Assembly (NCBI GenBank): GCA_027021615.1
Contig: JALUTY010000045.1
Span: 62,001 to 126,000, forward strand
Length of the DNA: 64,000 nucleotides
Direction: 5' to 3'
Source: a bacterium
GTDB taxonomy: Bacteria; Desulfobacterota; Deferrisomatia; Deferrisomatales; Deferrisomataceae
Below are positions 1,344 through 39,585 of this stretch, in pieces. Within the stretch, counting starts at the first letter, position 1, and the number at the start of each line of letters is the position of its first letter. A model generated the notes under the pieces. It saw nothing but the letters and a program-made list of their open reading frames with translations. It was not told the origin of the DNA and made no database searches. A program made the translations under genes and the position numbers.

Positions 1344-4135
1344 CCGGCTGCCTCGGCCAGGTGTTCCACGCACCGGGCGCAGGCCCGGGGATGCTCGGAG
1401 TGCCGACCCACGGTGGGGGAGTAGTTCCAGCACCGCTGGCACTTCTCGCCCTCGGCCCGCTCCACAGTCGCGCCCACGCCGGGCAGGTCCGGATCGGTGA
1501 ACGCGCCGCCCTCGCCGGGCACCAGGTCCACCTGGCTCACGATGAACAGGAACGGCAGCTCCGACGCGTAGGGGCCAAGGAACGCCTCCCACCGGTTGTC
1601 CACGTGGAGCACCACCCTGGCGTCCAGGGAGTGGCCGATGAGCTTGCTCACCCTGGCATCCTCCGCCGCCCGGGTCACCAGGGCCCGGAGCCTGCGCAGC
1701 CGGTCCCACCGGTCGGCCAGCTCGTCGTCCACGGCGTCGGCGTCTACCTGGGGGAACAGCTCCAGGTGCACGCTGTCGCCCGCGGCCGGCAGGTGGTGCC
1801 ACACCTCGTCGGACGTGAACGCAAGAACCGGCGCCATGAGCCGGCACAGCTTGTGGAGCACCTCGTACAGCACGGTCTGGGCCGCCCGACGGCCCCGGCT
1901 CCGGGCGGGGTAGGTGTAGAGCCGGTCCTTGAGGATGTCCAGGTAGAACGCCGACAGGTCCACCGCGCAGAAGTTGTGGATCCGGTGGAAGATGACGTGG
2001 AACTCGTACTCCTCGTAGGCCCGGCGGCACCGCTCGACCAGCCGGTTCAGCCGGTCCAGACAGTACCGGTCGATCTCCCACAGGTCGGAGCGGTCCACCG
2101 CGTCGGCCCGGGGGTCGAAGTCGGACAGGTTGCCCAGCAGGAACCGGCAGGTGTTGCGGATGCGGCGGTACGCCTCCACCAGGCGCCTCAGGATCTCCTC
2201 GGAGATCCGGATGTCGTCCCGGTAGTCCTCCGCCGCCACCCACAGCCGCAGGATCTCGGCCCCGTAGCGCCGGATCACCTCGTCGGGGCTGACCACGTTG
2301 CCCTGGCTCTTGGACATCTTGCGGCCTTGGCCGTCCACCACGAACCCGTGGGTCAGCACGGCCCGGTACGGGGCGTGGCCCCGGGTGCCCACCGCGGCCA
2401 GGAGGCTCGAGTGGAACCAGCCCCGGTGCTGGTCCGATCCCTCCAGGTACAGGTCGGCCGGGCTGTCGAGCTCGGGCCGCTTCTCGCACACGGCCGCGAA
2501 CGACACCCCCGAGTCGAACCACACGTCCAGGATGTCCTGTTCCTTCTCGAGGCGGGTCGATCCGCACGACGGGCAGGCCGCGCCGTCGGGCAGAAAGTCC
2601 TCCAGGGGCCGCTCGAACCAGGCGTCGGCGCCCTCGCTCTCGAACACCTCGGCCGCCCGGTAGCTCAGGCGGGGGTCCAGGTAGGTGGCACCGCAGTCGG
2701 CGCACCGGGCTGCCGTGATCGGTACCCCCCAGGCCCTCTGGCGCGAGATGCACCAGTCCGGCCGGTCGCGCACCATGTTGTAGATCCGCTCCCGCCCCCA
2801 CCGCGGCACCCACTGGACCCGGTCGATCTCGGACAGGGCCTTCTGCCGCAGCCCGGTCTGATCCATGGAGATGAACCACTGGCGGGTGGCCCGAAAGATG
2901 ATGGGCTGCTTGCACCGCCAGCAGTGGGGGTAGGAGTGCTCGATCTCCTCCTCCCGGAGGAGCGCCCCGGCGTCGCGCAGGGCCGTGTTGACCTCGGCGT
3001 TGGCCTGGAACACGTGCCGGCCCGCGAACCGGTCCCCCACCTCGGCCGTGAACCGGCCCCGGTCGTCCACCGGGGCGTAGGGCTCCAGGCCGTAGCGCAG
3101 GGCCACCTCGTAGTCCTCCTGGCCGTGGCCTGGGGCCGTGTGCACGCACCCGGTGCCGGCCTCCAGGGTGACGTGGTCGCCCAGCACCACCACGCTGTCC
3201 CGGTCGTACAGGGGGTGGCGGAACGCCTTGCCCTCCAGGGCCACGGGGTCCACCCGCACCAGCTCCCGGCCCTCGTCGACGCCGGCCGCCTCCAGAACCA
3301 CCGGGGCCAGCCGCCGGGCCAGGATCCACACCTCGCCCGAGCCCGCGGGCGCCTCGTAGGCCGCGTACTCGAACTCGGGGTTCAGGGCCACGGCCAGGTT
3401 GGCCGGGATGGTCCAGGGGGTGGTGGTCCAGATCACCACCGACACCCGTTTGCCCGCCAGGGCCGGGTCGATCTCGGCCGGGTCGCCCCCGAACGGGAAC
3501 TTCACGTAGATGCTGGGGCTCCTCTTCTCGACATACTCCACCTCGGCCTCGGCCAGCGCGGTGCGGCACGAGGCGCACCAGTACACCGGCTTCTGCCCTA
3601 CGTACACGGCCCCGGCCTCCACGAACCGGCCGAACTCCCGGGCGATCTGGGCCTCATAGGCGTAGTTCATGGTGAGGTAGGGGGCGTCCCACAGCCCGAA
3701 CACGCCCAGCCGCTGGAACTCCTCGCGCTGGATCCCCACGAACCGCTCGGCGTAGGCCCGGCATCGCCGCCGCACGTCGGCCTTGGAGAGGGCCTCCTTC
3801 TCCGGCCCGAGCTCCTTGTCCACCTGGTGCTCGATGGGCAGCCCGTGGCAGTCCCACCCGGGCACGTACGGGCTGTGGAACCCGAACATGGACCGGCTCT
3901 TGACCACGATGTCCTTGAGGATCTTGTTGACCGCGTGGCCCATGTGGATGTGGCCGTTGGCGTACGGGGGCCCGTCGTGGAGCACGAACAGGGGCCGGCT
4001 GGACGAGTTGTCGAGTATGCGGCGGTACAGCCCCTGCTCCTCCCACCGGGCGAGGATCTCCGGCTCCCGCTTGGCCAGGTTGGCCCGCATGGGGAAGGCG
4101 GTCTTGGGGAGGTTCAGGGTCTCTTTGTAGTCCAT
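1340..4135 (-). CDS. ileS: Isoleucyl-tRNA synthetase
   Basis: Class I aminoacyl-tRNA synthetase charging tRNA-Ile with isoleucine, with a CP1 editing domain. The 931-residue protein has the HIGH-type motif in [12 protein letters not shown] (about residues 57-68) and KMSKS in [10 protein letters not shown] (about 602-611). The C-terminal zinc motif is CQRCW...CARC near residues 896-922. The length is typical of the bacterial type 1 enzyme. The start at 4135 follows a 94-bp gap after rpe. The gene overlaps lspA at its 3' end. Most apparent reading frames on the opposite strand here are GC-rich shadows. Confidence 0.97.
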
Positions 4136-4229
4136 CAGCGCGTCCTCCGAAGGCCTGGGGAAAGCCCCGACAACCGCCCGGAAGCCCGGGCAAAAAGAAC
4201 GCCCTACCTTAGCAAACCGGCCCGGGGAG

Positions 4230-4883
4230 TCAAGAGGCGCCCCGGCGCAGCCGCTCGATCGCCTCGGCGTAGTCGTCGGCCCCGAACACGTACGACCCGG
4301 CCACGAACGCGTCGGCCCCGGCCCGGGCGCACGGCCCGATCGTCCGGTGGGTGATGCCCCCGTCCACCTCGATGTGGAACGAAAGGCCCCGCTCGCCGGC
4401 CATGCGGCGCAGCCGCTCGATCTTGGGAACGGCCAGGTCCAGGAACGACTGCCCCCCGAACCCGGGGTTCACGCTCATCACCAGCACCAGGTCCACCAGG
4501 TCGAGCACGTGCTCCACCGCGCACACCGGGGTCGAGGGGTTCAGGCTCACCCCGGCCTTCCGGCCCAGGTCCCGGATCTGCTGGAGGTTCCGGTGCAGGT
4601 GGGGGCAGGCCTCGGCGTGCACCGTGAGCACGTCGGCCCCGGCCTCGGCGAAGGCGGGCACGTACCGCTCGGGCTCCACGATCATCAGGTGCACGTCCAG
4701 GAGCTTGTCGGTGGCCGCCCGAACCGCCCGGACCACCGGGGGGCCGATGGTCAGGTTCGGCACGAACCGGCCGTCCATCACGTCCACGTGGATCCAGTCG
4801 GCCCCGGCCCGGTCCACGGCCCGGACCTCGTCGTCCAGCCGGCCGAAGTCGGCGGAGAGGATGCTGGGAGCGATGATCGGCAT
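4230..4883 (-). CDS. rpe: Ribulose-phosphate 3-epimerase
   Basis: Interconverts ribulose 5-phosphate and xylulose 5-phosphate in the pentose phosphate pathway, in the cytoplasm. The 217-residue (beta/alpha)8 barrel has the metal-binding signature [12 protein letters not shown] (residues 31-42), [13 protein letters not shown] and the phosphate-binding EVDGGI. ATG at 4883 gives the standard N-terminus [13 protein letters not shown]; longer in-frame starts run into the upstream gene and have no family match. It lies 59 bp after the PASTA gene and 94 bp before ileS, consistent with one operon. Confidence 0.96.
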
Positions 4884-4942
4884 GGGGGAGACTCCGGAAA
4901 GAAAGGGGCGGTCGTCAGATTGCAGTCCGGGGGCGCCGGTCG

Positions 4943-5896
4943 TCAAGGCCCCAGGTCGGCCGCCGAGGCGGTCTGCACCACCCGGCCGTCCACCCGGAGC
5001 TCGGCCCGGTCGGCCAGGCCGGCCGGCACGGCCACCCGGACCACCCGGCCCCGGGGCACCCAGTCGTCCCACAGGATCCAGGTGCGGCCTGCCGAGCGCC
5101 AGACCAGCTGGACCCGGGCCTTGCCGAACCCGGGGGGCACGGCGTGGAACAGGTACAGGGCCCGGCTGAATCCCACGGCAGGGGCCGTGCCGGCCACGGT
5201 GAGGGCCACGGCGGCCCCGGCCTCGGCCGGAAACCCCGGGAGGGGGTCCTGGGCCACGATCCGTCCCGCCTGGGTGGGGTCGAGCAGCTCCACCTCCTCG
5301 ATCCGGCCCACCCGCAGCCCCATGCGGTCGATGCGGTCCAGGGACTCGGCCAGGGGCAGGCCGGCCAGCCGGGGCATGCGCCACCGGACGGGACGGGGGC
5401 CCCGGCTCACGGCCAGGGGCACCTGGGCCCCCCGGGGCAGGGTCCGGCCGGGCTCGATCCCCTGGGCCACCACCGTGCCCTCTGGGCCCCGTCGGATCCG
5501 GACCTCCACCGCGGCCTTCAGCCCCAGCTCCTCCAGGCGGATGCGGGCGTCCTCCAGAGCCAGGCCCCGCAGGTCGGGCAAGGGGTGGCGCTCGGGCCCC
5601 CGGGACAGGATCACCCCCACGCCCCGGCCCGCCTTGACCCGGGCCCCGGGCCGGGGGTGTTGGAGGATCACGTGGTTCTCCGGCACCGTGTCGGAGTAGT
5701 CGAAATCGCGCACCTCCAGGTCGAGGCCGGTCCCCTGGAGGCGGTCCAGGGCCTCGCCCAGAGCCAGCCCCCGCAGATCGGGCACCTCCACCTCCGGGGT
5801 CTTCTCCACGAGCCAGGCCACGGCCAGGTAGGCGCCGAGACCGGCGGAGGCCAGGAACATCGCCCCGTAGAGGACCGCGACCAGGGCCCGCTTCAC
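4943..5896 (-). CDS. Membrane-anchored PASTA-domain protein
   Basis: A 317-residue protein with one N-terminal transmembrane segment (about residues 5-27) followed by three PASTA-like repeats of about 65-70 residues. These are recognisable from [24 protein letters not shown] and [12 protein letters not shown], each followed by a helix and a GRxxxQxPxPG-type strand. A C-terminal tail of about 80 residues is not assigned. PASTA domains usually bind muropeptides or beta-lactams on Ser/Thr kinases and penicillin-binding proteins, but no kinase or transpeptidase domain is present, so this is probably a cell-envelope scaffold or sensor. GTG at 5896 overlaps the rsmB stop as GTGA, indicating coupled translation. 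Confidence 0.85.
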
Positions 5897-18751: not shown

Positions 18752-18838
18752 GCCGAAGTGGCGGAACTGGTAGACGCGCCAGATTCAGGATCTGGTGGGC
18801 GCAAGCCCGTGGAGGTTCGAGTCCTCTCTTCGGCACCA
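18752..18838 (+). tRNA. tRNA-Leu(CAG)
   Basis: An 87-nt class II tRNA. The acceptor GCCGAAG (18752-18758) pairs with CTTCGGC (18828-18834), followed by A and an encoded CCA. The anticodon arm is CCAGA/TCTGG around the loop TTCAGGA, giving anticodon CAG. The long variable arm (TGGGCGCAAGCCCG) and GGTTCGAGTCC T arm fit leucine tRNA. A Rho-independent terminator follows 15 bp later. Confidence 0.97.
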
Positions 18839-18853
18839 ACCCGCTCGACCGAG

Positions 18854-18889
18854 CGACCGGAGTCCCTCGAGGGTTCCGGTCGTTTTTTT
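18854..18889 (+). terminator. Rho-independent terminator after tRNA-Leu(CAG)
   Basis: The stem CGACCGGA pairs with TCCGGTCG around an inner CCCTCGAGGG, followed by seven T residues (18883-18889). It is a strong intrinsic terminator for the plus strand. Confidence 0.9.
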
Positions 18890-18916
18890 GCGGCGCCTCG
18901 GGGGCGCCGCAAACGA

Positions 18917-18946
18917 AAAGGGGAGCCGATCTCTCGGCTCCCCTTT
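18917..18946 (-). terminator. Rho-independent terminator of the secG-tRNA-Leu(GAG) transcript
   Basis: A stem of about 12 bp (AAAGGGGAGCCGA / TCGGCTCCCCTTT) followed on the minus strand by TTTTCGTTT. It lies 11 bp beyond the CCA end of the minus-strand tRNA and is positioned to end the galT-pgk-tpiA-secG-tRNA transcript. Confidence 0.82.
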
Positions 18947-18956
18947 CTGCTTCCGA

Positions 18957-19042
18957 TGGTGCCCAGGGCCGGACTCGAACCGGCACGGGATTTCCCCACT
19001 ACCCCCTCAAGATAGCGTGTCTACCAGTTCCACCACCTGGGC
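18957..19042 (-). tRNA. tRNA-Leu(GAG)
   Basis: An 86-nt class II tRNA on the minus strand. The acceptor GCCCAGG pairs with CCTGGGC, with A and encoded CCA. The anticodon stem CTATC/GGTAG surrounds TTGAGGG, giving GAG. The long variable arm is GTGGGGAAATCCCGT. It starts 16 bp after the secG stop, so it is probably processed from the secG mRNA. A tRNA-Leu(GAG) next to secG is also known in E. coli (leuU). Confidence 0.97.
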
Positions 19043-31803: not shown

Positions 31804-32796
31804 ATGGACTTCGATCGGCTCCGCGACCTGGCCGCCGGTTTCCAGCCGGCCAAGCTTCTGCTGGTGGCGTTGGACCTGGGGGTGTTCGACGCCCTGGCCG
31901 GGGGGCCTCTGGCCGCCCAGGAGTTGGCGGGGCGGATCGGCGCGGATCCCAGGGCCACCGAGATCTGCGCGAACGCCCTGGTGGGGATGGGGCTGCTGAC
32001 CCACGGCGAGCGCGGGTACGGGGTGGCGGCCCCGGCGGCCCGGTGGCTGGTGCGCACCTCCCCCGAGTATCGGGGGGAGATCCTCCGGCACATCCACAAC
32101 ACCTGGGAGAGGTGGGCGGGGTTGGAGAGCGCCTGGCGCGAGGGCCGCCCCGCGGCCGGAAAGCCCGCACCCCCGCCGGACCCCGACGATCCGGCACGCC
32201 GCCACTTCATCCTGGGCATGGAGAACGTCACCCGGGAGGTCGCGCCCCGGATCGCCGAGCTGCTTCCTCTGGCCGGGACGAGGTCCCTGCTGGACCTGGG
32301 TGCCGGGCCGGGGAACTACTGCCTGGCGTTTGTGGCCCGTTGGCCGGGGCTGCGGGTGTGCCACTTCGATCTGCCCGGGGTCTCGCGGATCGCGCGCGAG
32401 TTCGTGGGGGGCAAGCCCGGGGCGGACCGGATCACGTTCTTGGAGGGGAGCTTTCTCGAGGATCCCCTGGGCGGTCCCTACGACGTGGTGTGGGCCAGCC
32501 AGATCATCCACATGCTGGGCGAGGACGAGGTCCGGCGGTTGCTCGCCCGGATCGGGGAGGTGCTTACCCCCGGAGGGCTCGTGGCGATCCACGACCACTT
32601 CCTGGATCCCGGCCGAACGGAACCGCCGTTCGCCGCCCTGTTCGGGGTGCACATGCTGGTCTCCACCGACCGGGGCCGGACCTATGGGCTGGACGAGGTG
32701 GAGGGGTGGGGCAGGGAGGCGGGGTTCGATCCAGAGGGTCGGATCGAGTACGGCCGGGGGCCGCGGATCCTGCTGCTGCGGTGCCGGCCCGCCTAA
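31804..32796 (+). CDS. SAM-dependent O-methyltransferase-family protein
   Basis: A 330-residue protein with the two-domain plan of the plant/bacterial O-methyltransferase family (AcrA/TcmN/hydroxyneurosporene type). An N-terminal winged-helix dimerisation domain (about residues 1-100, with DLGVFDALAGGPL) is followed by a Rossmann domain with motif I LLDLGAGPGNY (about 161-171), acidic motif II CHFDLPGV and post-IV LTPGGLVAIHDHFLD. Its substrate cannot be told; relatives methylate hydroxyls of polyketides, carotenoids or bacteriochlorophyll precursors. ATG at 31804 has AAAGGAGA 8 bp upstream. Confidence 0.83.
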   Translation: MDFDRLRDLAAGFQPAKLLLVALDLGVFDALAGGPLAAQELAGRIGADPRATEICANALVGMGLLTHGERGYGVAAPAARWLVRTSPEYRGEILRHIHNTWERWAGLESAWREGRPAAGKPAPPPDPDDPARRHFILGMENVTREVAPRIAELLPLAGTRSLLDLGAGPGNYCLAFVARWPGLRVCHFDLPGVSRIAREFVGGKPGADRITFLEGSFLEDPLGGPYDVVWASQIIHMLGEDEVRRLLARIGEVLTPGGLVAIHDHFLDPGRTEPPFAALFGVHMLVSTDRGRTYGLDEVEGWGREAGFDPEGRIEYGRGPRILLLRCRPA

Positions 32797-32797
32797 C

Positions 32798-32840
32798 TTC
32801 GGTCGTCGGTTTGGGGCCTTCGGCCCGCGGGCCGAAGACC
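32798..32840 (-). repeat. Short composite spacer repeat between methyltransferase and hesB-like genes
   Basis: On the minus strand, a GGGCCGAAGGCCCC hairpin region is followed by two heptamers (AACCGAC, GACCGAA) and GTTAG, which forms the TAA stop of the methyltransferase gene on the other strand. It fills the 49-bp convergent gap. Confidence 0.65.
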
Positions 32841-32845
32841 CCGGC

Positions 32846-33163
32846 TCAGCAGCCGCCCGAGCAGCCGGAGGCGCAGTCCGCGGTCTGGGACCGGGCCTTC
32901 ACCACGAAGCCCCGGCGTAAGGGGCCCGACAGGTACTCTACCCGGATCCCGCCCACCTGGGTGAGCAGGGATCGGTTCATCACCAGCCGAAACCCGTCCT
33001 CGGCATGCACGGTGTCGTCGTCTTTGGGCTCATCCAGAGCCAGGCCCCAGGAGGGCCCGCCTCACCCCATGCCCGAGATGTAGATGCGCACGGCCGGGTT
33101 CTCGCCGTGCTCCTGGAGGGACTCCTTGAGCTTCTCCCTCGCCTTGTCGGTCAGCTCGATCAT
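32846..33163 (-). CDS. HesB/IscA-like selenoprotein (in-frame UGA = Sec34)
   Basis: ATG at 33163 has AGGAG 8 bp upstream. Translation gives 33 residues (MIELTDKAREKLKESL...IYISGMG), a TGA at 33064-33062, then 71 residues in the same frame starting GGPSWGLALDEPKDDD and ending CASGCSGGC. Non-selenoprotein HesB/IscA-like relatives have GCGGP with Cys exactly where the TGA falls. The ALDEPKD string and the Cys-rich C-terminus fit the family, which makes or carries Fe-S clusters. HesB-like selenoproteins are known in Deltaproteobacteria. A candidate SECIS hairpin follows the UGA. A nonsense mutation is the alternative, but no other lesion is visible. No sel genes occur in the window. Confidence 0.83.
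33027..33041 (-). promoter_or_regulatory. Candidate bacterial SECIS hairpin
   Basis: On the minus strand, 20 nt after the UGA, GGCTC and GAGCC form a 5-bp stem around the loop TGGAT. The loop has a G at its second position and lies about 25 nt from the UGA, within the distance known for bacterial SECIS elements. A second possible stem (GGCCC/GGGCC, about 33044-33056) lies between it and the UGA. Confidence 0.5.
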
Positions 33164-33205
33164 CGGTAGCTCCTTTCGGGGTGGGTGATCGGATCGGCAG
33201 TTTCG

Positions 33206-33607
33206 ATGACGAAAGGGACCGAAAGGTTACCGTCTCCGGAAGAGAAGGGCCAGGGAGCGGTGCTGGTCTCGCGGGTCTGGCCGGCCCGGGCCTTCCTGTA
33301 CGCCGAGCTGAAGGAGGCCGGGCTGGACGTGTACGGCGTGGACGCAGTGGCCGATCTGGCCGAGGCCCTGTGGCAGTGGCCCCGCCGGTTCGGGGTCGTG
33401 GTCATGGATCCGGCGGGGTTCCCCGGGGGCGACGTGGCTCGAGCCGTGGGGCTGGCCCGTAGGGCCGGGCTGGACGTGCTGCTCGTGGCCGGCCCCTGGG
33501 ACGTGGACCGGCTGGCGGATCGGGCCGCCGGGGCCTGGGTGCTTCGGAAGCCGGTGACCATCGGGGCGGTGGTGGAGGCGGTCCGGCGGGCGCTTCGACG
33601 CCGTTGA
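33206..33607 (+). CDS. Degenerate receiver-domain protein
   Basis: A 133-residue protein with receiver-like alternation of strands and helices. The central Asp (VVVMDPAGFPGG, Asp68) and the C-terminal Lys (VLRKPVT, Lys115) are where CheY-type domains have them, but the acidic pair after strand 1 is replaced (VLVSRVWPAR). It may therefore signal without Mg-dependent phosphorylation. The start is uncertain: ATG 33206 is used; GTG 33185 and GTG 33260 are in frame. Divergent from the selenoprotein gene, with only about 40 bp between starts. Confidence 0.65.
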   Translation: MTKGTERLPSPEEKGQGAVLVSRVWPARAFLYAELKEAGLDVYGVDAVADLAEALWQWPRRFGVVVMDPAGFPGGDVARAVGLARRAGLDVLLVAGPWDVDRLADRAAGAWVLRKPVTIGAVVEAVRRALRRR

Positions 33608-33620
33608 GCGTGGCTCCAGC

Positions 33621-35129
33621 TCAACCCTTGCGCTGCATGGCCACCCGGCCCTGGGGGCCGAACCGCTCGTAGGTGAACTCGACTTGGCCCACCGGGTTCT
33701 CCATCTTCCGCACCGCCGTGCCCACCCGCACCGTGACCCCGGGAAACACTTTTTCCGCCTCCACCCGGGCTCGGATCGGATCGGGTTCGGGTAGGGCCTG
33801 GGCCCTGGCTTCCCACTCGTCCGCGGCTGCTTCCAAAGAGGCGGGGGCCCCCTCGGCCCGGGCCCGTTGGGAGAGCAAGGCGGCCCATCCGGAGAAGGCG
33901 GCCCGGAACGGATCGATGGTACGGGCTCGTGCCACCGAGACCTCGGTGGCCAGGTTGTTGGGGCTTCCCAGCTCCCCGGCTCGAATCCGTTCGCCCGCCT
34001 CCAGCAACCCGCCCCGGCAGGCCCCGCCGTGGGCCACCCAGATGGCGCGAAGGGCGGTGAGCCGGCCCTTCATGGAGTAACGGCGGACGTGGATCACCGA
34101 GGCGATCACGTGGGCCCGCTCGAAGAACTCGGCCGACACCACCCCGCCCACCCGGAGGGGTACCGCACGGGTCTGAATCACGCCAGCCGCTGTGAACAGG
34201 GACCCCATCACCTCCACCGGCGAGCGGATCAGGCTGCCCCGGATCTCCAGGTCGCCCATCACCCGGACGGGGAACGGCGCCTCCAGGTCTCCGTCCACCA
34301 CCACCGTGGCGGGAATGACCTCGTCTCTCCACCGCCGCAGGTCCTGAGCGGAAGCCACCCGTACCACCGGCATCAGGTACGCCTGCGAGCGCTCCGGGTC
34401 TGCGAACCGGATCTGGCCCGCGGCCTGGGCCACCACCGTGCGGCCGTCGGGCGCCAAGCCCAGCCCCGAGCCCAGCCGCACCCGACTCTCCCCTGGCTTG
34501 GGGGGAATCGGCTCCCCCCGTACCGTCAGCCCCGCTGTGCCTTGACCCGGAGGCACGAAGGTGCCCGCGGCCTGGCCCGGCTCCACCACCAGCAGAGAGG
34601 GCTCCGCCATGTCGGCGCCGGCCTCCAGGGCTTCCAGGAACACGTGGGGGTCCACCGGGGCTCCCCCCCGCCAATCGACCCGAGAGGGGGAGCCGTCTAC
34701 CGGCGGGCGGCCCCGGGCTACCTCCACGGGCTCCTGATAGTCTCGCCGCAGGTAGGCCCGCCGAAGGGCGTCGGTATCGAGCAGCTCGTCGGGCACGCCG
34801 TAGGCGTGCACGAGTTCGCCCAGCTCCTTCTCCGTGAGCCGGGCCCCCCGGCCCTTGGGCGGGTACAGGATCAGGTAGGCGGTCAGCCCGTCGTCGGAGA
34901 AACGGACCTTGGCCTTCTCGCCCCGGAACGCCTCGGCACTGCGGCTTGCCACCGGAAACGCCCGGCCCCGGCCGTACCGGTACGCCTCCCGCACCGCCAC
35001 CCAGTCGATGGCCACCCCGGGCAGGTCCTGCCGGAGCCTGCGCACCACCGCCGACAACGGATCCGGATCCCGGGGCACCCGCAGATACACCCGTCCTGCC
35101 CTGGCCTCGATCGTCAGGCTCTCCGCCAT
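33621..35129 (-). CDS. FapA / DUF342-family protein
   Basis: A 502-residue cytoplasmic protein matching the FapA (DUF342) polymer-forming family. An N-terminal domain of about 140 residues is followed by a right-handed beta-helix core built from imperfect repeats (AAGTFVPPGQGTAGLTVRGEPIPP, then VVVDGDLEAPFPVRVMGDLEIRG and LRVGGVVSAEFF). A C-terminal helical region follows (about 400-480). FapA proteins are found near flagellar and chemotaxis genes and have been tied to polar flagellum number in Vibrio. The neighbouring receiver proteins are consistent with a signalling role, but function is not established. Confidence 0.78.
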   Translation of the reverse strand: MAESLTIEARAGRVYLRVPRDPDPLSAVVRRLRQDLPGVAIDWVAVREAYRYGRGRAFPVASRSAEAFRGEKAKVRFSDDGLTAYLILYPPKGRGARLTEKELGELVHAYGVPDELLDTDALRRAYLRRDYQEPVEVARGRPPVDGSPSRVDWRGGAPVDPHVFLEALEAGADMAEPSLLVVEPGQAAGTFVPPGQGTAGLTVRGEPIPPKPGESRVRLGSGLGLAPDGRTVVAQAAGQIRFADPERSQAYLMPVVRVASAQDLRRWRDEVIPATVVVDGDLEAPFPVRVMGDLEIRGSLIRSPVEVMGSLFTAAGVIQTRAVPLRVGGVVSAEFFERAHVIASVIHVRRYSMKGRLTALRAIWVAHGGACRGGLLEAGERIRAGELGSPNNLATEVSVARARTIDPFRAAFSGWAALLSQRARAEGAPASLEAAADEWEARAQALPEPDPIRARVEAEKVFPGVTVRVGTAVRKMENPVGQVEFTYERFGPQGRVAMQRKG

Positions 35130-35208
35130 CGCCCTCTCGTTTCGATGGTTGCCTTCGAGAACCCGTCCCTGGGGTTGTTGGATGCGCTCAAATCCCTAGA
35201 CCGGCTCT

Positions 35209-35466
35209 CACTTCGGTCGTTGGTCGTCGGTCTGGGGCTTTCGGCCCGCTGGACGGCTGGGCTGCCAGGCGGCCGGGCGGGTCCTGAAGCCCGGACGCCA
35301 AGACCTCGGGGGCATGGGGCTCTGTTGGAGCGGCCGCCCGCCTAACGGGTCGAGCTACCCGGAATTCCTCTATTCTAGTCTCTGCCCCCGGCACTCGCGC
35401 CCGGCCGGAGGCAGGTCTCTTGCCCCGCCCCCCGAGGGTCCTCGGCTTGAACGCAACTCGGTATCA
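35209..35466 (-). repeat. Full-length composite spacer repeat between response regulator and fapA-like gene
   Basis: Reading the minus strand from the response-regulator stop: a hairpin module TGATACC..GTTGCGTTCAA (35466-35419), an ACTAGAA heptamer tract (about 35365-35381), and a block with TCCAACAGAGCCCCATGCCCC. GCCCAGCC octamers, GGGCCGAAAGCCCC and three GACCNAN heptamers (35232-35212) follow. It occupies most of the 334-bp gap, is collinear with transcription, and follows the same module order as the 50.6-51.0 kb spacer. Confidence 0.82.
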
Positions 35467-35844
35467 GTACTCGTCCAGCGCCCTTCTCACCGCGCTGAGG
35501 AGCTTGTCCTTGTCCACAGGTTTGAGAACGTAGTTTCGGGCCCCGAGCTGCACGGCCTCGAGCACCCTGGCCTCGTGGCCCACCGCCGAGACCATGATCA
35601 CCCGGCAGGCCGGGTCGATGTCACGCAGCAGCCGTAACACCTGGATCCCGTCCATGCCGGGCATGACCACGTCCAGGGTCACGACATCGGGAAGCTCGTG
35701 TTCATACACCTTCAAAGCCTCGGGACCGCCCAATGCCACCAGGACCCGGTACCCGGCGCCGGTGAGCATGTCGGCCAGCACCCGAGCCATGAACTCGGTG
35801 TCGTCCACCACCAGCACCGACTCCGTGTACGGCCGAGGTTTCAC
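35464..35844 (-). CDS. Single-domain response regulator
   Basis: A 126-residue receiver domain with the complete phosphorylation site: SVLVVDDTEFMARV (Asp pair about residues 13-14), VTLDVVMPGMDG (acceptor Asp), a Ser in VIMVSAVGHE and Lys in YVLKPVDKD. It has no output domain. GTG at 35844 overlaps the nadB stop as GTGA, so it is translated with nadB although a functional link is unclear. It resembles the CheY of the chemotaxis cluster in length and motifs. Confidence 0.92.
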   Translation of the reverse strand: MKPRPYTESVLVVDDTEFMARVLADMLTGAGYRVLVALGGPEALKVYEHELPDVVTLDVVMPGMDGIQVLRLLRDIDPACRVIMVSAVGHEARVLEAVQLGARNYVLKPVDKDKLLSAVRRALDEY

Positions 35845-37415
35845 GGCATCGCCCTCCGCACGAGGGTGTCGCGTCGCCAATCGTCGCGGGGAGCAGGGTG
35901 ATCGGCGTTGTAGTGGAGCCCCCGGCTCTCCCGGCGGTGGGCGGCGCACCGCACCATCAGGTCGGCCACCTGGGCCAGGTTCCGCAGTTCCAGCAGGTCG
36001 GCCGAAGGCCGGTACCTGCGCAGATGGTCGCGGACCTCCTCGTGGATCAGGTCGATCCGTCGCCTGGCCCGGGCCAGGCGACGGTCGGTGCGCACGATCC
36101 CCACATAGTTCCACATGGTCCGCCGGATCTCGTCCCAGTTCTGGGTGACCACCACGTCCTCGTCGGGCTCCCGGCTGCCTCCCCCCTTCCACGGTGGTGG
36201 GGGCTCGATGGGGCCGGACTCCCGCCCCCCCGGAGCGCGCGCATCCCGGGCCGCTGCCGTGGCAAACACCAGGGCTTCCAGCAGGCTGTTGCTGGCGAGG
36301 CGGTTGGCCCCATGGAGCCCGGTGCACGCCACCTCGCCGACCGCGTACAGCCCCGGCACGTCCGATCGGCCGTGCGCGTCCACCCAGACCCCCCCGCACA
36401 GGTAGTGGGCCGCCGGCACCACCGGCATCGGGTCCCGGGTGATGTCGATCCCGTACCGGAGGCACGCCGCGTGGATGCCCGGGAACCGGCTGCGTACGAA
36501 CTCGGGATCCCGGTGTGAGATGTCCAGGAGCACGTGCTCGTCACCGCTGCGTTTCATCTCGGCGTCGATGGCCCGGGCCACCACGTCCCGGGGCGCCAGG
36601 CATCCCCGGGGGTGGTATCGCTCCATGAACGTCTCGCCGGAGCGCAGTCGCAGCACCCCTCCCTCGCCCCGAACGGCCTCGCTGATTAAGAAGTTCTTGG
36701 CTTGCGGGTGGTACAGGCAGGTGGGATGGAACTGCATGAACTCCAGGTTGGCCAAGGTGGCCCCGGCCCGGTAGGCCATGGCCAGGCCGTCGCCCGAGGC
36801 GATGTCCGGGTTAGAGGTGTACAGGTACACCTTGCCCGCGCCGCCGGTGGCCAGGCACGTGACAGGCGCCAGGAACGACACGATCCGGTCGTCGGGGGCG
36901 AGCACGTGGGCCCCAACGCACCGGCCCCCGGCATCCCGGATCAGATCCACGGCGAAGTGGTTCTCGAAGAACCGGATGTTCCTGCTCTCCCGGGCCCTGC
37001 AGAGTAAGGCCTGCTCAACCTCACGACCTGTCATGTCCCGGGCGTGCACGATTCTGCGGCAGGAATGGCCGCCCTCCTGGCCCAGATCGAACGGAACCTC
37101 CGCCCGTTTTGCCGGGGTGAACTCGACCCCCCAACGGGCCAGCCGGCGGATGTGCTCGGGAGCCTCCCGCACGACCCGCTCCACCACCTGCCGATGACAC
37201 AGCCCGGCTCCGGCCTCCAGCGTGTCGGCCACGTGGGACCCGAACGAGTCCTCCGGGGCCAGCACCGCGGCGATGCCGCCCTGGGCGTAGTTGGTGTTGG
37301 ACTCGCCCCGCTCTTTTTTGGTGACCACCGCCACGGTTCCGGTCTCGGCCACCTCAAGGGCGAACGTGAGCCCCCCGATCCCGCTGCCGAGCACCAGAAA
37401 GTCGAAACGCTCCAT
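35841..37415 (-). CDS. nadB: L-aspartate oxidase
   Basis: A flavoprotein that oxidises L-aspartate to iminoaspartate, the first step of de novo NAD synthesis; under anaerobiosis fumarate is the usual acceptor. The 524-residue protein has the FAD fold GSGIGGLTFALEVAE (about residues 10-24) and SNTNYAQGGIAAVL. The catalytic-site regions are MQFHPTCLYHP and HGANRLASNSLLEALVF, followed by a helical C-terminal domain. ATG at 37415 follows AAGGAGA. nadA and nadC are not in the window. A promoter and a 7-bp inverted repeat lie about 60-115 bp upstream. Confidence 0.95.
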   Translation of the reverse strand: MERFDFLVLGSGIGGLTFALEVAETGTVAVVTKKERGESNTNYAQGGIAAVLAPEDSFGSHVADTLEAGAGLCHRQVVERVVREAPEHIRRLARWGVEFTPAKRAEVPFDLGQEGGHSCRRIVHARDMTGREVEQALLCRARESRNIRFFENHFAVDLIRDAGGRCVGAHVLAPDDRIVSFLAPVTCLATGGAGKVYLYTSNPDIASGDGLAMAYRAGATLANLEFMQFHPTCLYHPQAKNFLISEAVRGEGGVLRLRSGETFMERYHPRGCLAPRDVVARAIDAEMKRSGDEHVLLDISHRDPEFVRSRFPGIHAACLRYGIDITRDPMPVVPAAHYLCGGVWVDAHGRSDVPGLYAVGEVACTGLHGANRLASNSLLEALVFATAAARDARAPGGRESGPIEPPPPWKGGGSREPDEDVVVTQNWDEIRRTMWNYVGIVRTDRRLARARRRIDLIHEEVRDHLRRYRPSADLLELRNLAQVADLMVRCAAHRRESRGLHYNADHPAPRDDWRRDTLVRRAMP

Positions 37416-37475
37416 CGAGCAGGTCTCCTTGCCCCGGGCGGCTGGCGTGGCCGAAACTCCCGCAAACCGGCACCG

Positions 37476-37505
37476 AACGTAGTACAGGCGCGGTTCCACG
37501 GTCAA
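37476..37505 (-). promoter_or_regulatory. Putative nadB promoter
   Basis: On the minus strand, TTGACC (37505-37500), an 18-bp spacer and TACGTT (37481-37476). An inverted repeat CGGGACA-GGGTT-TGTCCCG (37512-37530) sits just upstream of the -35 and could be an operator. Confidence 0.45.
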
Positions 37506-37584
37506 GGAGATCGGGACAGGGTTTGTCCCGCCGGAAACGGTTTTTGGCCTCACTGTAAAAGCGCTGAAAGTACGGGCGGATGCG

Positions 37585-37613
37585 TTGACACGGCCGAGTC
37601 CTGCTCGTAGGAT
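37585..37613 (+). promoter_or_regulatory. Sigma-70-type promoter of the DUF465-ilvD operon
   Basis: A consensus TTGACA (37585-37590), a 17-bp spacer and TAGGAT (37608-37613), 65 bp before the DUF465 start. It is the best promoter match seen in the window. Confidence 0.7.
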
Positions 37614-37678
37614 GCAGTCTCTGTCCCACCGCCGCCCGCAGGGAGCCGGCCTCAGGGGAGGAGCCGCAAGGAGCGAGG

Positions 37679-37933
37679 ATGGAGAAACGGGACGAAGCCA
37701 TCGCGAAGATCCTGATGAAGGAGAGCGAGGAGTTCCGGCGGGAGATGGAGGCGCACCAGCGCTACGAGCGCATTTTGGAGGAGCTCAACCGCCGACCCCA
37801 CCTGACGCCGGACGAGGAGATGGAGCGCAAGAAGATCCAGAAGCTCAAACTGGCCGGCAAGGATCGGATGGCCCGGATGATCTTAGCGTACCGAAAGGCC
37901 CACCCCGAGACGGGATCGGGAGACGTCGCGTGA
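37679..37933 (+). CDS. DUF465/YdcH-like small helical protein
   Basis: An 84-residue, highly charged, mostly helical protein. The motif [20 protein letters not shown] (about residues 38-57) is the DUF465 (YdcH/SlyX-like) signature: helix, short turn with HLTPxEE, second Lys-rich helix, so an antiparallel hairpin. The function of the family is unknown. ATG at 37679 follows AAGGAGCGAG. Its stop overlaps the ilvD start as GTGA, so it is translationally coupled to branched-chain amino acid synthesis. Confidence 0.82.
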
Positions 37934-39585
37934 GAAGCCAGCGCATCACCCAGGGACTGGAGCGGGCTCCCCACCGGGCCCTGCTGTCCGCCACCGGCAT
38001 GCCGCGCAGTGAGCTCGGCAAGCCGCTGATCGGGGTCGCCTCCAGCTTCACCGATCTGATCGCCGGCCACGTGGGCATGCGCGACCTGGAGCGGTTCGTC
38101 GAGAAGGGGGTCCACGCCGGGGGCGGCTACCCTTTTCTGTTCGGGGTGCCGGGCATCTGCGACGGCATCGCCATGGGCCACGGGGGCATGCGTTACAGCC
38201 TGCCTAGCCGGGAGCTCATTGCCGACGTGATCGAGAGCGTGGTCGAGGCCCACAGCCTCGACGGGCTGGTGCTTCTGACCAACTGCGACAAGATCACCCC
38301 CGGCATGCTGATGGCAGCGGCCCGCCTCAACGTGCCGTCCGTCGTGGTGACGGCCGGGCCCATGATGGCGGGCCGGCACCAAGGCCGGAGGCTGAGCTTC
38401 GTGCGGGACACCTTCGAGGCCATGGCCCGGCACCAGGCCGGCGAGATCGGGGCCGAGGAGTTGGAGGCCTGCGAGCAGGAGGCCTGCCCCGGCTGCGGAT
38501 CGTGCCAAGGGCTGTACACGGCCAACACCATGGCCTGTCTGACCGAGGCCCTGGGCATGAGCCTGCCGGGCTGCGGGACCGCGCTGGCCGTGAGCGCGAG
38601 AAAGCGCCACCTGGCCTATGCCAGCGGCCACCGGGTGGTGGACCTGGTGCGTCAGGGGGTCCGGCCCCGGGACGTCATGACCCCCGGTGCGTTTACCAAT
38701 GCCATCCGCCTGGACCTGGCCCTGGGCGGCAGCACCAACTCCGTGCTCCACCTGTGCGCCATCGCCCGGGAGGCTGGGGTGGCCCTGCCTCTGGAGCGGT
38801 TCGACGAGCTGAGCCGCGAGACCCCCCAGCTGTGCTCCCTGCGTCCTGCCGGGGACCACTTCATGGAGGACCTGGACGCGGCGGGCGGGGTGATGGCAGT
38901 GCTCCACCGGCTGGAGGACCGGGTGGTCGAGGCCCCGTCGGTGGCGGAGGTGTCGGTGCGCCAGGCGGCGGCCTCGGTGGAGTGGCTCGACGAGGAGGTG
39001 ATCCGATCCGCGGGGGAGCCGGTGCGGCCCGAGGGGGGCATCGCGATCCTGCGGGGGAGCCTCGCGCCGGACGGAGCTGTGGTGAAGCAGTCGGGGGTGA
39101 GCCCGGGCATGATGCGGTTCGTGGGCACGGCCCGGTGCTTCGACTCGGAAGAGGCGGCCATGGCCGCCATCATGGGGGGCGAAATCCGGCCGGGCACCGT
39201 GGTGGTGATCCGATACGAAGGACCCCGGGGCGGGCCGGGCATGCGGGAGATGCTGGCGCCCACCGCCGCGCTCATGGGCATGGGCCTGGGGCAGAGCGTG
39301 GCCTTGGTGACCGACGGCCGGTTCAGCGGAGGCACCCGCGGGCCGTGCGTGGGCCACGTGAGCCCCGAGGCCGCGGCCGGCGGACCCATCGCCCTGGTGC
39401 AGGACGGCGACGAGGTGGAGCTGGACATCCCCGGCCGGCGGCTCGAGCTGCGGGTGGACCCGGCCGAGCTCGGGGCCCGTGGCAGCCGGTGGGTGGAGCC
39501 CGAGCCCAAGGTCTCGGTCGGCTGGCTCCTTCGGTACGCTCGACTTGTCACCTCGGCCAACACCGGGGCCGTGCTGCAGGGCTGA
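37930..39585 (+). CDS. ilvD: Dihydroxy-acid dehydratase
   Basis: A Fe-S dehydratase making the 2-oxo acid precursors of valine and isoleucine. The 551-residue protein has the cluster cysteines in [11 protein letters not shown] (about residues 117-127) and [14 protein letters not shown] (about 190-203), and the C-terminal [19 protein letters not shown] (about 461-479). GTG at 37930 overlaps the DUF465 stop; the N-terminus [18 protein letters not shown] is typical. It precedes ilvB but is separated by a 556-bp repeat-filled spacer. Confidence 0.96.

Follow-up and report, generated by a model that had tools for sequence, protein, structure and literature searches.

Introduction

HesB-like selenoproteins have been a listed family since at least 2005–2006 (PMC1088965, PMC1794560), and they also appear in PMC13188914. 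The HesB-like selenoprotein of M. maripaludis (MMJJ_08070) was detected through mutagenesis and 75Se labelling (PMC11097638). It belongs to the TIGR01911 (HesB_rel_seleno) type, which is known from Deltaproteobacteria and Clostridia and carries a UxGP motif with selenocysteine (Sec) at a conserved Cys position. A second model, NCBIfam NF038090 (IscA_HesB_Se), covers Sec-containing IscA/HesB-like proteins. The canonical A-type proteins IscA, SufA, and ErpA (TIGR02011, TIGR01997, and PRK13623) have a Cys residue in place of the Sec residue.

Here I describe a gene of this kind in a 64,000-nt stretch of a Deferrisomatales genome (hereafter, the window). The first HesB-like selenoproteins were recognised some two decades ago, so the gene itself belongs to a known kind, as the original prediction had said of the family. 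It adds a member to the known HesB-like selenoproteins, from a branch scoring near or below the cut-off of the current model. It is almost certainly a working gene for a selenoprotein of the IscA/HesB-like family (NF038090).

An in-frame UGA codon in an IscA/HesB-like gene

The gene occupies positions 32846–33163 on the minus strand (318 nt). Direct reading of the sequence reveals only two stops in the whole 33163–32846 frame, a TGA at codon 34 (33064–33062) and the terminal TGA (32848–32846), so that the UGA codon 34 is the sole interruption of the frame. Readthrough of this codon, from the start ATG at 33163, gives a protein of 105 residues. The frame continues for 71 codons between the two TGA codons, up to a Cys-rich C-terminal end, CASGCSGGC (32849–32875), located where A-type proteins have their C-terminal Cys ligands. 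A ribosome-binding site, AAAGGAG (33170–33176, minus strand), lies 6 nt from the ATG. The original prediction had given exact coordinates for the gene, the UGA codon and the hairpin discussed below, and its description of a single interruption, a 71-codon continuation to a Cys-rich end, and a ribosome-binding site before the start agrees with these readings.

With Cys at residue 34, the protein scores 89 bits against NF038090 (cut-off 85); when the genome was searched with readthrough of the stop, the score was 81.6 bits, below the cut-off. The protein is not a member of TIGR01911 (49.8 bits against a cut-off of 66.35), although it shares the UxGP motif and the Sec residue at the conserved Cys position with the M. 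maripaludis protein. Another difference is that the SECIS element proposed here lies within the coding region, whereas archaeal SECIS elements are mostly in the 3′-UTR (PMC13188914). The Pfam PF01521 score is 22.3 bits, below the gathering score of 26.3, and the PF01521 profile search of this genome found no match; the gene thus escapes PF01521-based searching. On the other hand, phmmer matched the protein with solved HesB/IscA-type proteins (1nwb, 2apn, 1r94, 1s98, 1x0g, and 2d2a), and in the alignments shown, residue 34 coincides with the first conserved cysteine (GCSG) of the solved IscA-type proteins. The same is true for IscA, SufA, and ErpA, which are homologous along nearly the full length. 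However, the Sec protein gets only 42–45 bits with their models (cut-offs 117–151), and it differs from them in having Sec instead of Cys and another C-terminal Cys motif. Both the first-Cys ligand position and the C-terminal Cys residues of A-type proteins are therefore kept, as Sec34 and the non-canonical CASGCSGGC tail. An A-type fold and metal binding of the product are most likely, judging from these alignments.

The gene resembles the NF038090 family in length, in the position of Sec/Cys, in the Cys-rich end, and in an above-cut-off score when U is read as Cys. In contrast, the sequences of the same order as a group score 68–87 bits, near or below the cut-off of 85, and have GPSWG[LM] or GPTWGM where other families commonly have GPSLxL/M.

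Selenocysteine machinery

The genome surveyed is 4.25 Mb in 134 contigs and 97.8% complete. All four genes whose presence the original prediction had proposed to check were found: a tRNASec gene (selC, 72.6 bits; called tRNA-SeC by ARAGORN), selA (582.9 bits), selB (336.7 bits), and selD (356.4 bits), the three protein genes each scoring over the cut-off. Thus, the absence of selB or selC, which was to count against the prediction, does not apply. Weak secondary tRNASec matches were rejected as further copies, one of them being a tRNA-Ser. A selB gene over the cut-off was also found in 11 of 11 other genomes of the order. The selD gene found here is itself interrupted by an in-frame TGA close to the N-terminus (GVSRTCGUAAK; 1525–1527 of its fetched stretch), and it is probably a selenoprotein gene too.

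Conservation of the TGA codon

The other 11 genomes of the order each gave exactly one NF038090 match, with one TGA at the same place. A single-sequence search of contigs had returned only 3 relatives, far fewer than the family search of whole genomes. Among 56 homologues fetched from the phylum, column 34 is TGA in 51, TGC in 4, and TGT in 1, so that Sec or Cys occupies this position throughout. The original prediction had expected Cys here in non-Sec relatives, within a GCGGP motif. The Cys residue was indeed found at this column in 5 of the 56 homologues, but the motif is mostly GGCSG and no Cys form was found within the order (12 genomes). Each of the matches listed has an intact frame or one interrupted by a single TGA and nothing else. 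TAA and TAG occur in none, and this check, too, did not speak against the prediction.

In comparison with two congeners, dN/dS is 0 before the TGA and about 0.30 after it. In more distant pairs, where dS is near saturation, dN/dS stays under 1 both upstream and downstream of the TGA wherever dS can be estimated. Such values are not those expected of a gene dead after codon 33.

In the phylogenetic tree, which is based on few columns and has many open forks, the 12 sequences of the order, all of them Sec forms, form a single clade with a support of 100/99, and the branch leading to it has a length of 0.8 changes per column. Outside the order, the tree suggests that Cys forms arise within Sec groups, at least partly via tandem duplication beside a Sec copy. 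Several relatives in the phylum outside the order have two adjoining NF038090 genes, usually one Sec and one Cys form. In the Cys copies read from such tandem pairs, the SECIS stem has decayed.

The SECIS hairpin

Downstream of the UGA lies a hairpin, GGCUC-UGGAU-GAGCC (33041–33027, minus strand). In the published bSECIS model (PMC13188914), the loop has 3–9 nt, the stem has 4–16 bp, a G is among the first two loop positions, the distance from the UGA is 16–37 nt, and the MFE is −7.5 or lower. The hairpin is within all of these limits: the stem has 5 bp, the loop has 5 nt with G at position 2 and again at position 3, 25 nt separate the UGA from the loop, and the energy is −8.4 kcal/mol. Thus, the loop G and the distance noted in the original prediction fit a bacterial SECIS element, and the hairpin was found to be conserved in Sec genes and not in Cys genes.

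The five core stem pairs form in 98–100% of 52 Sec genes. In 12 of these 52, a G-U pair replaces a G-C pair and the pairing is retained; these cases stem from a first-base change in the codon after GAG, mostly from Pro to Ser. One stem position is U-A in 50 of the 52 Sec genes and is paired in none of 8 Cys copies, which include two distant canonical A-type sequences. Moreover, where the stem contains an Ala codon, this codon is GCT in all 49 such Sec genes and in none of the 6 such Cys copies, while GCT makes up only 14 of the 344 Ala codons (4%) of six neighbouring genes. A constraint on synonymous codons of this kind is not accounted for by the protein motif alone. Since the sequences are related, all these Sec and Cys counts are not independent events.

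When the whole segment from the UGA on is folded, a competing helix involving the UGA-proximal bases beats the SECIS hairpin. When the first 3 nt are excluded, the SECIS hairpin dominates, with stem pair probabilities of 0.65–0.93 or more. It can be argued that a ribosome at the UGA would hold off the competing helix. By its folding energy, the segment stands out only moderately (z −1.84).

Selenoprotein gene, pseudogene, or another kind of readthrough

Might the TGA be a point mutation or a base-calling error in a former Cys codon? A single base separates TGC from TGA, and the assembly behind the window is a draft in 134 contigs. However, separate assemblies from the genus, the family, and the order, one of them a single-contig genome, share this TGA, and selection acts on both sides of it, while the SECIS hairpin is conserved in the TGA genes only. 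A pseudogene or a sequencing error is therefore extremely improbable. Reading of the UGA by a route other than Sec insertion, either a general recoding of UGA to Trp or stop-codon suppression, is just as remote. No point supporting such a route was found, and it sits badly with the presence of tRNASec, SelA, SelB, and SelD, with the gene's own terminator, which is also a TGA as judged by the length of homologues, and with the fact that homologues lacking the TGA have Cys rather than Trp at this column.

The machinery, the conserved TGA, the model-conforming hairpin conserved in Sec genes, and the GCT bias together indicate a genuine selenoprotein gene rather than a pseudogene. The finding is not due to chance: every genome of the order has the TGA, dN/dS stays under 1 before and after it, and the hairpin conservation seen among Sec genes is absent among Cys genes. 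Every computable check that the original prediction had proposed for a HesB/IscA-like selenoprotein came out in its favour.

Proposed function and the Fe-S assembly context

For the selenoprotein, the following course may be proposed. A ribosome would meet the UGA at codon 34, and the hairpin 25 nt downstream would recruit SelB with Sec-tRNASec. Sec would then be inserted and synthesis would continue to the Cys-rich tail. The product would most likely fold as an A-type iron-sulfur protein, a fold suggested by homology. By the same homology, the Sec34 selenolate would replace the first conserved cysteine and, together with the C-terminal cysteines, bind iron or an Fe-S cluster. The cluster might be received from the IscS/NifU system and then passed to client proteins.

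An Fe-S carrier function of the Sec HesB protein is conjectured and somewhat favoured here. Against it stands the finding that M. maripaludis with a disrupted HesB-like gene was unimpaired in nitrogen fixation (PMC11097638). It is also possible, though less probable, that the selenoprotein is made but, instead of being a carrier, has a thiol/selenol redox role or binds selenium or heavy metals. Compared with the GCSG...CGCG pattern of canonical IscA/ErpA, the GxGUGGPSWG motif and the tail (CASGCSGGC or GSCSC) are divergent. The order's sequences also stand apart in a clade of their own (branch of 0.8 changes per column), and most uncharacterised selenoproteins are probably redox in function according to a review (PMC13188914). 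This non-carrier role is less easily reconciled with the retention of every ligand region and with the absence of any other A-type homologue from the matches in these genomes, which encode IscS/NifU. What advantage Sec might have over Cys in this protein is a matter of conjecture.

As for the Fe-S context, a TIGR00049 search (E up to 1) of 12 genomes of the order gave the Sec protein as the one credible A-type homologue in all 12; an extra match in one genome (E 0.24) is not credible as a further copy. The SufB/D core was found in none of 6 genomes of the order, while the controls were positive in 14 of 14, and NifU/IscU is present in 6 of 6 genomes. In the present genome, an IscS-like gene adjoins a full-length NifU-like gene (3395–5420 of the fetched stretch, read from the ORFs).

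In the PF01521-based study of Vinella et al., A-type carriers were absent from many Delta-Proteobacteria (PMC2682760). Since PF01521 finds nothing in the present genome, Sec forms may account for part of that reported absence. I tentatively consider that a selenoprotein might be the only A-type protein of this order, in which no SUF scaffold was found, so that Fe-S delivery there would depend partly on selenium supply. The study would in that case have overlooked the Sec forms, as gene callers end such genes at the UGA. If the Sec protein works as an A-type carrier, the A-type class would be selenium-dependent in this bacterium. In any case, 12 genomes with the Sec form as the sole A-type homologue found make the function of HesB-like selenoproteins testable without the backup of a Cys paralogue.

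Genomic surroundings

The Sec HesB gene is flanked by a convergent O-methyltransferase-family gene (31804–32796) and, on the other side, by a FapA gene (33621–35129). The gene order over 31804–39585, conserved order-wide, is O-methyltransferase, Sec HesB, FapA, response regulator, NadB, DUF465, and IlvD, and its conservation also counts in favour of the selenoprotein gene. This order is kept in a congener and in relatives of other families, while the most distant ones miss some members, which shows that the locus is stable over the long term. A small gene of 140 residues without a Pfam family (33185–33607), divergent from the Sec HesB gene, was not found in the fetched stretches of more distant relatives; it is 82–83% identical in two congeners. 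A search of the 64,000-nt window with Rfam at gathering thresholds matched only a tRNA. Two tRNA-Leu genes, with CAG and GAG anticodons, lie at 18752–19042 on opposite strands, 118 nt apart.
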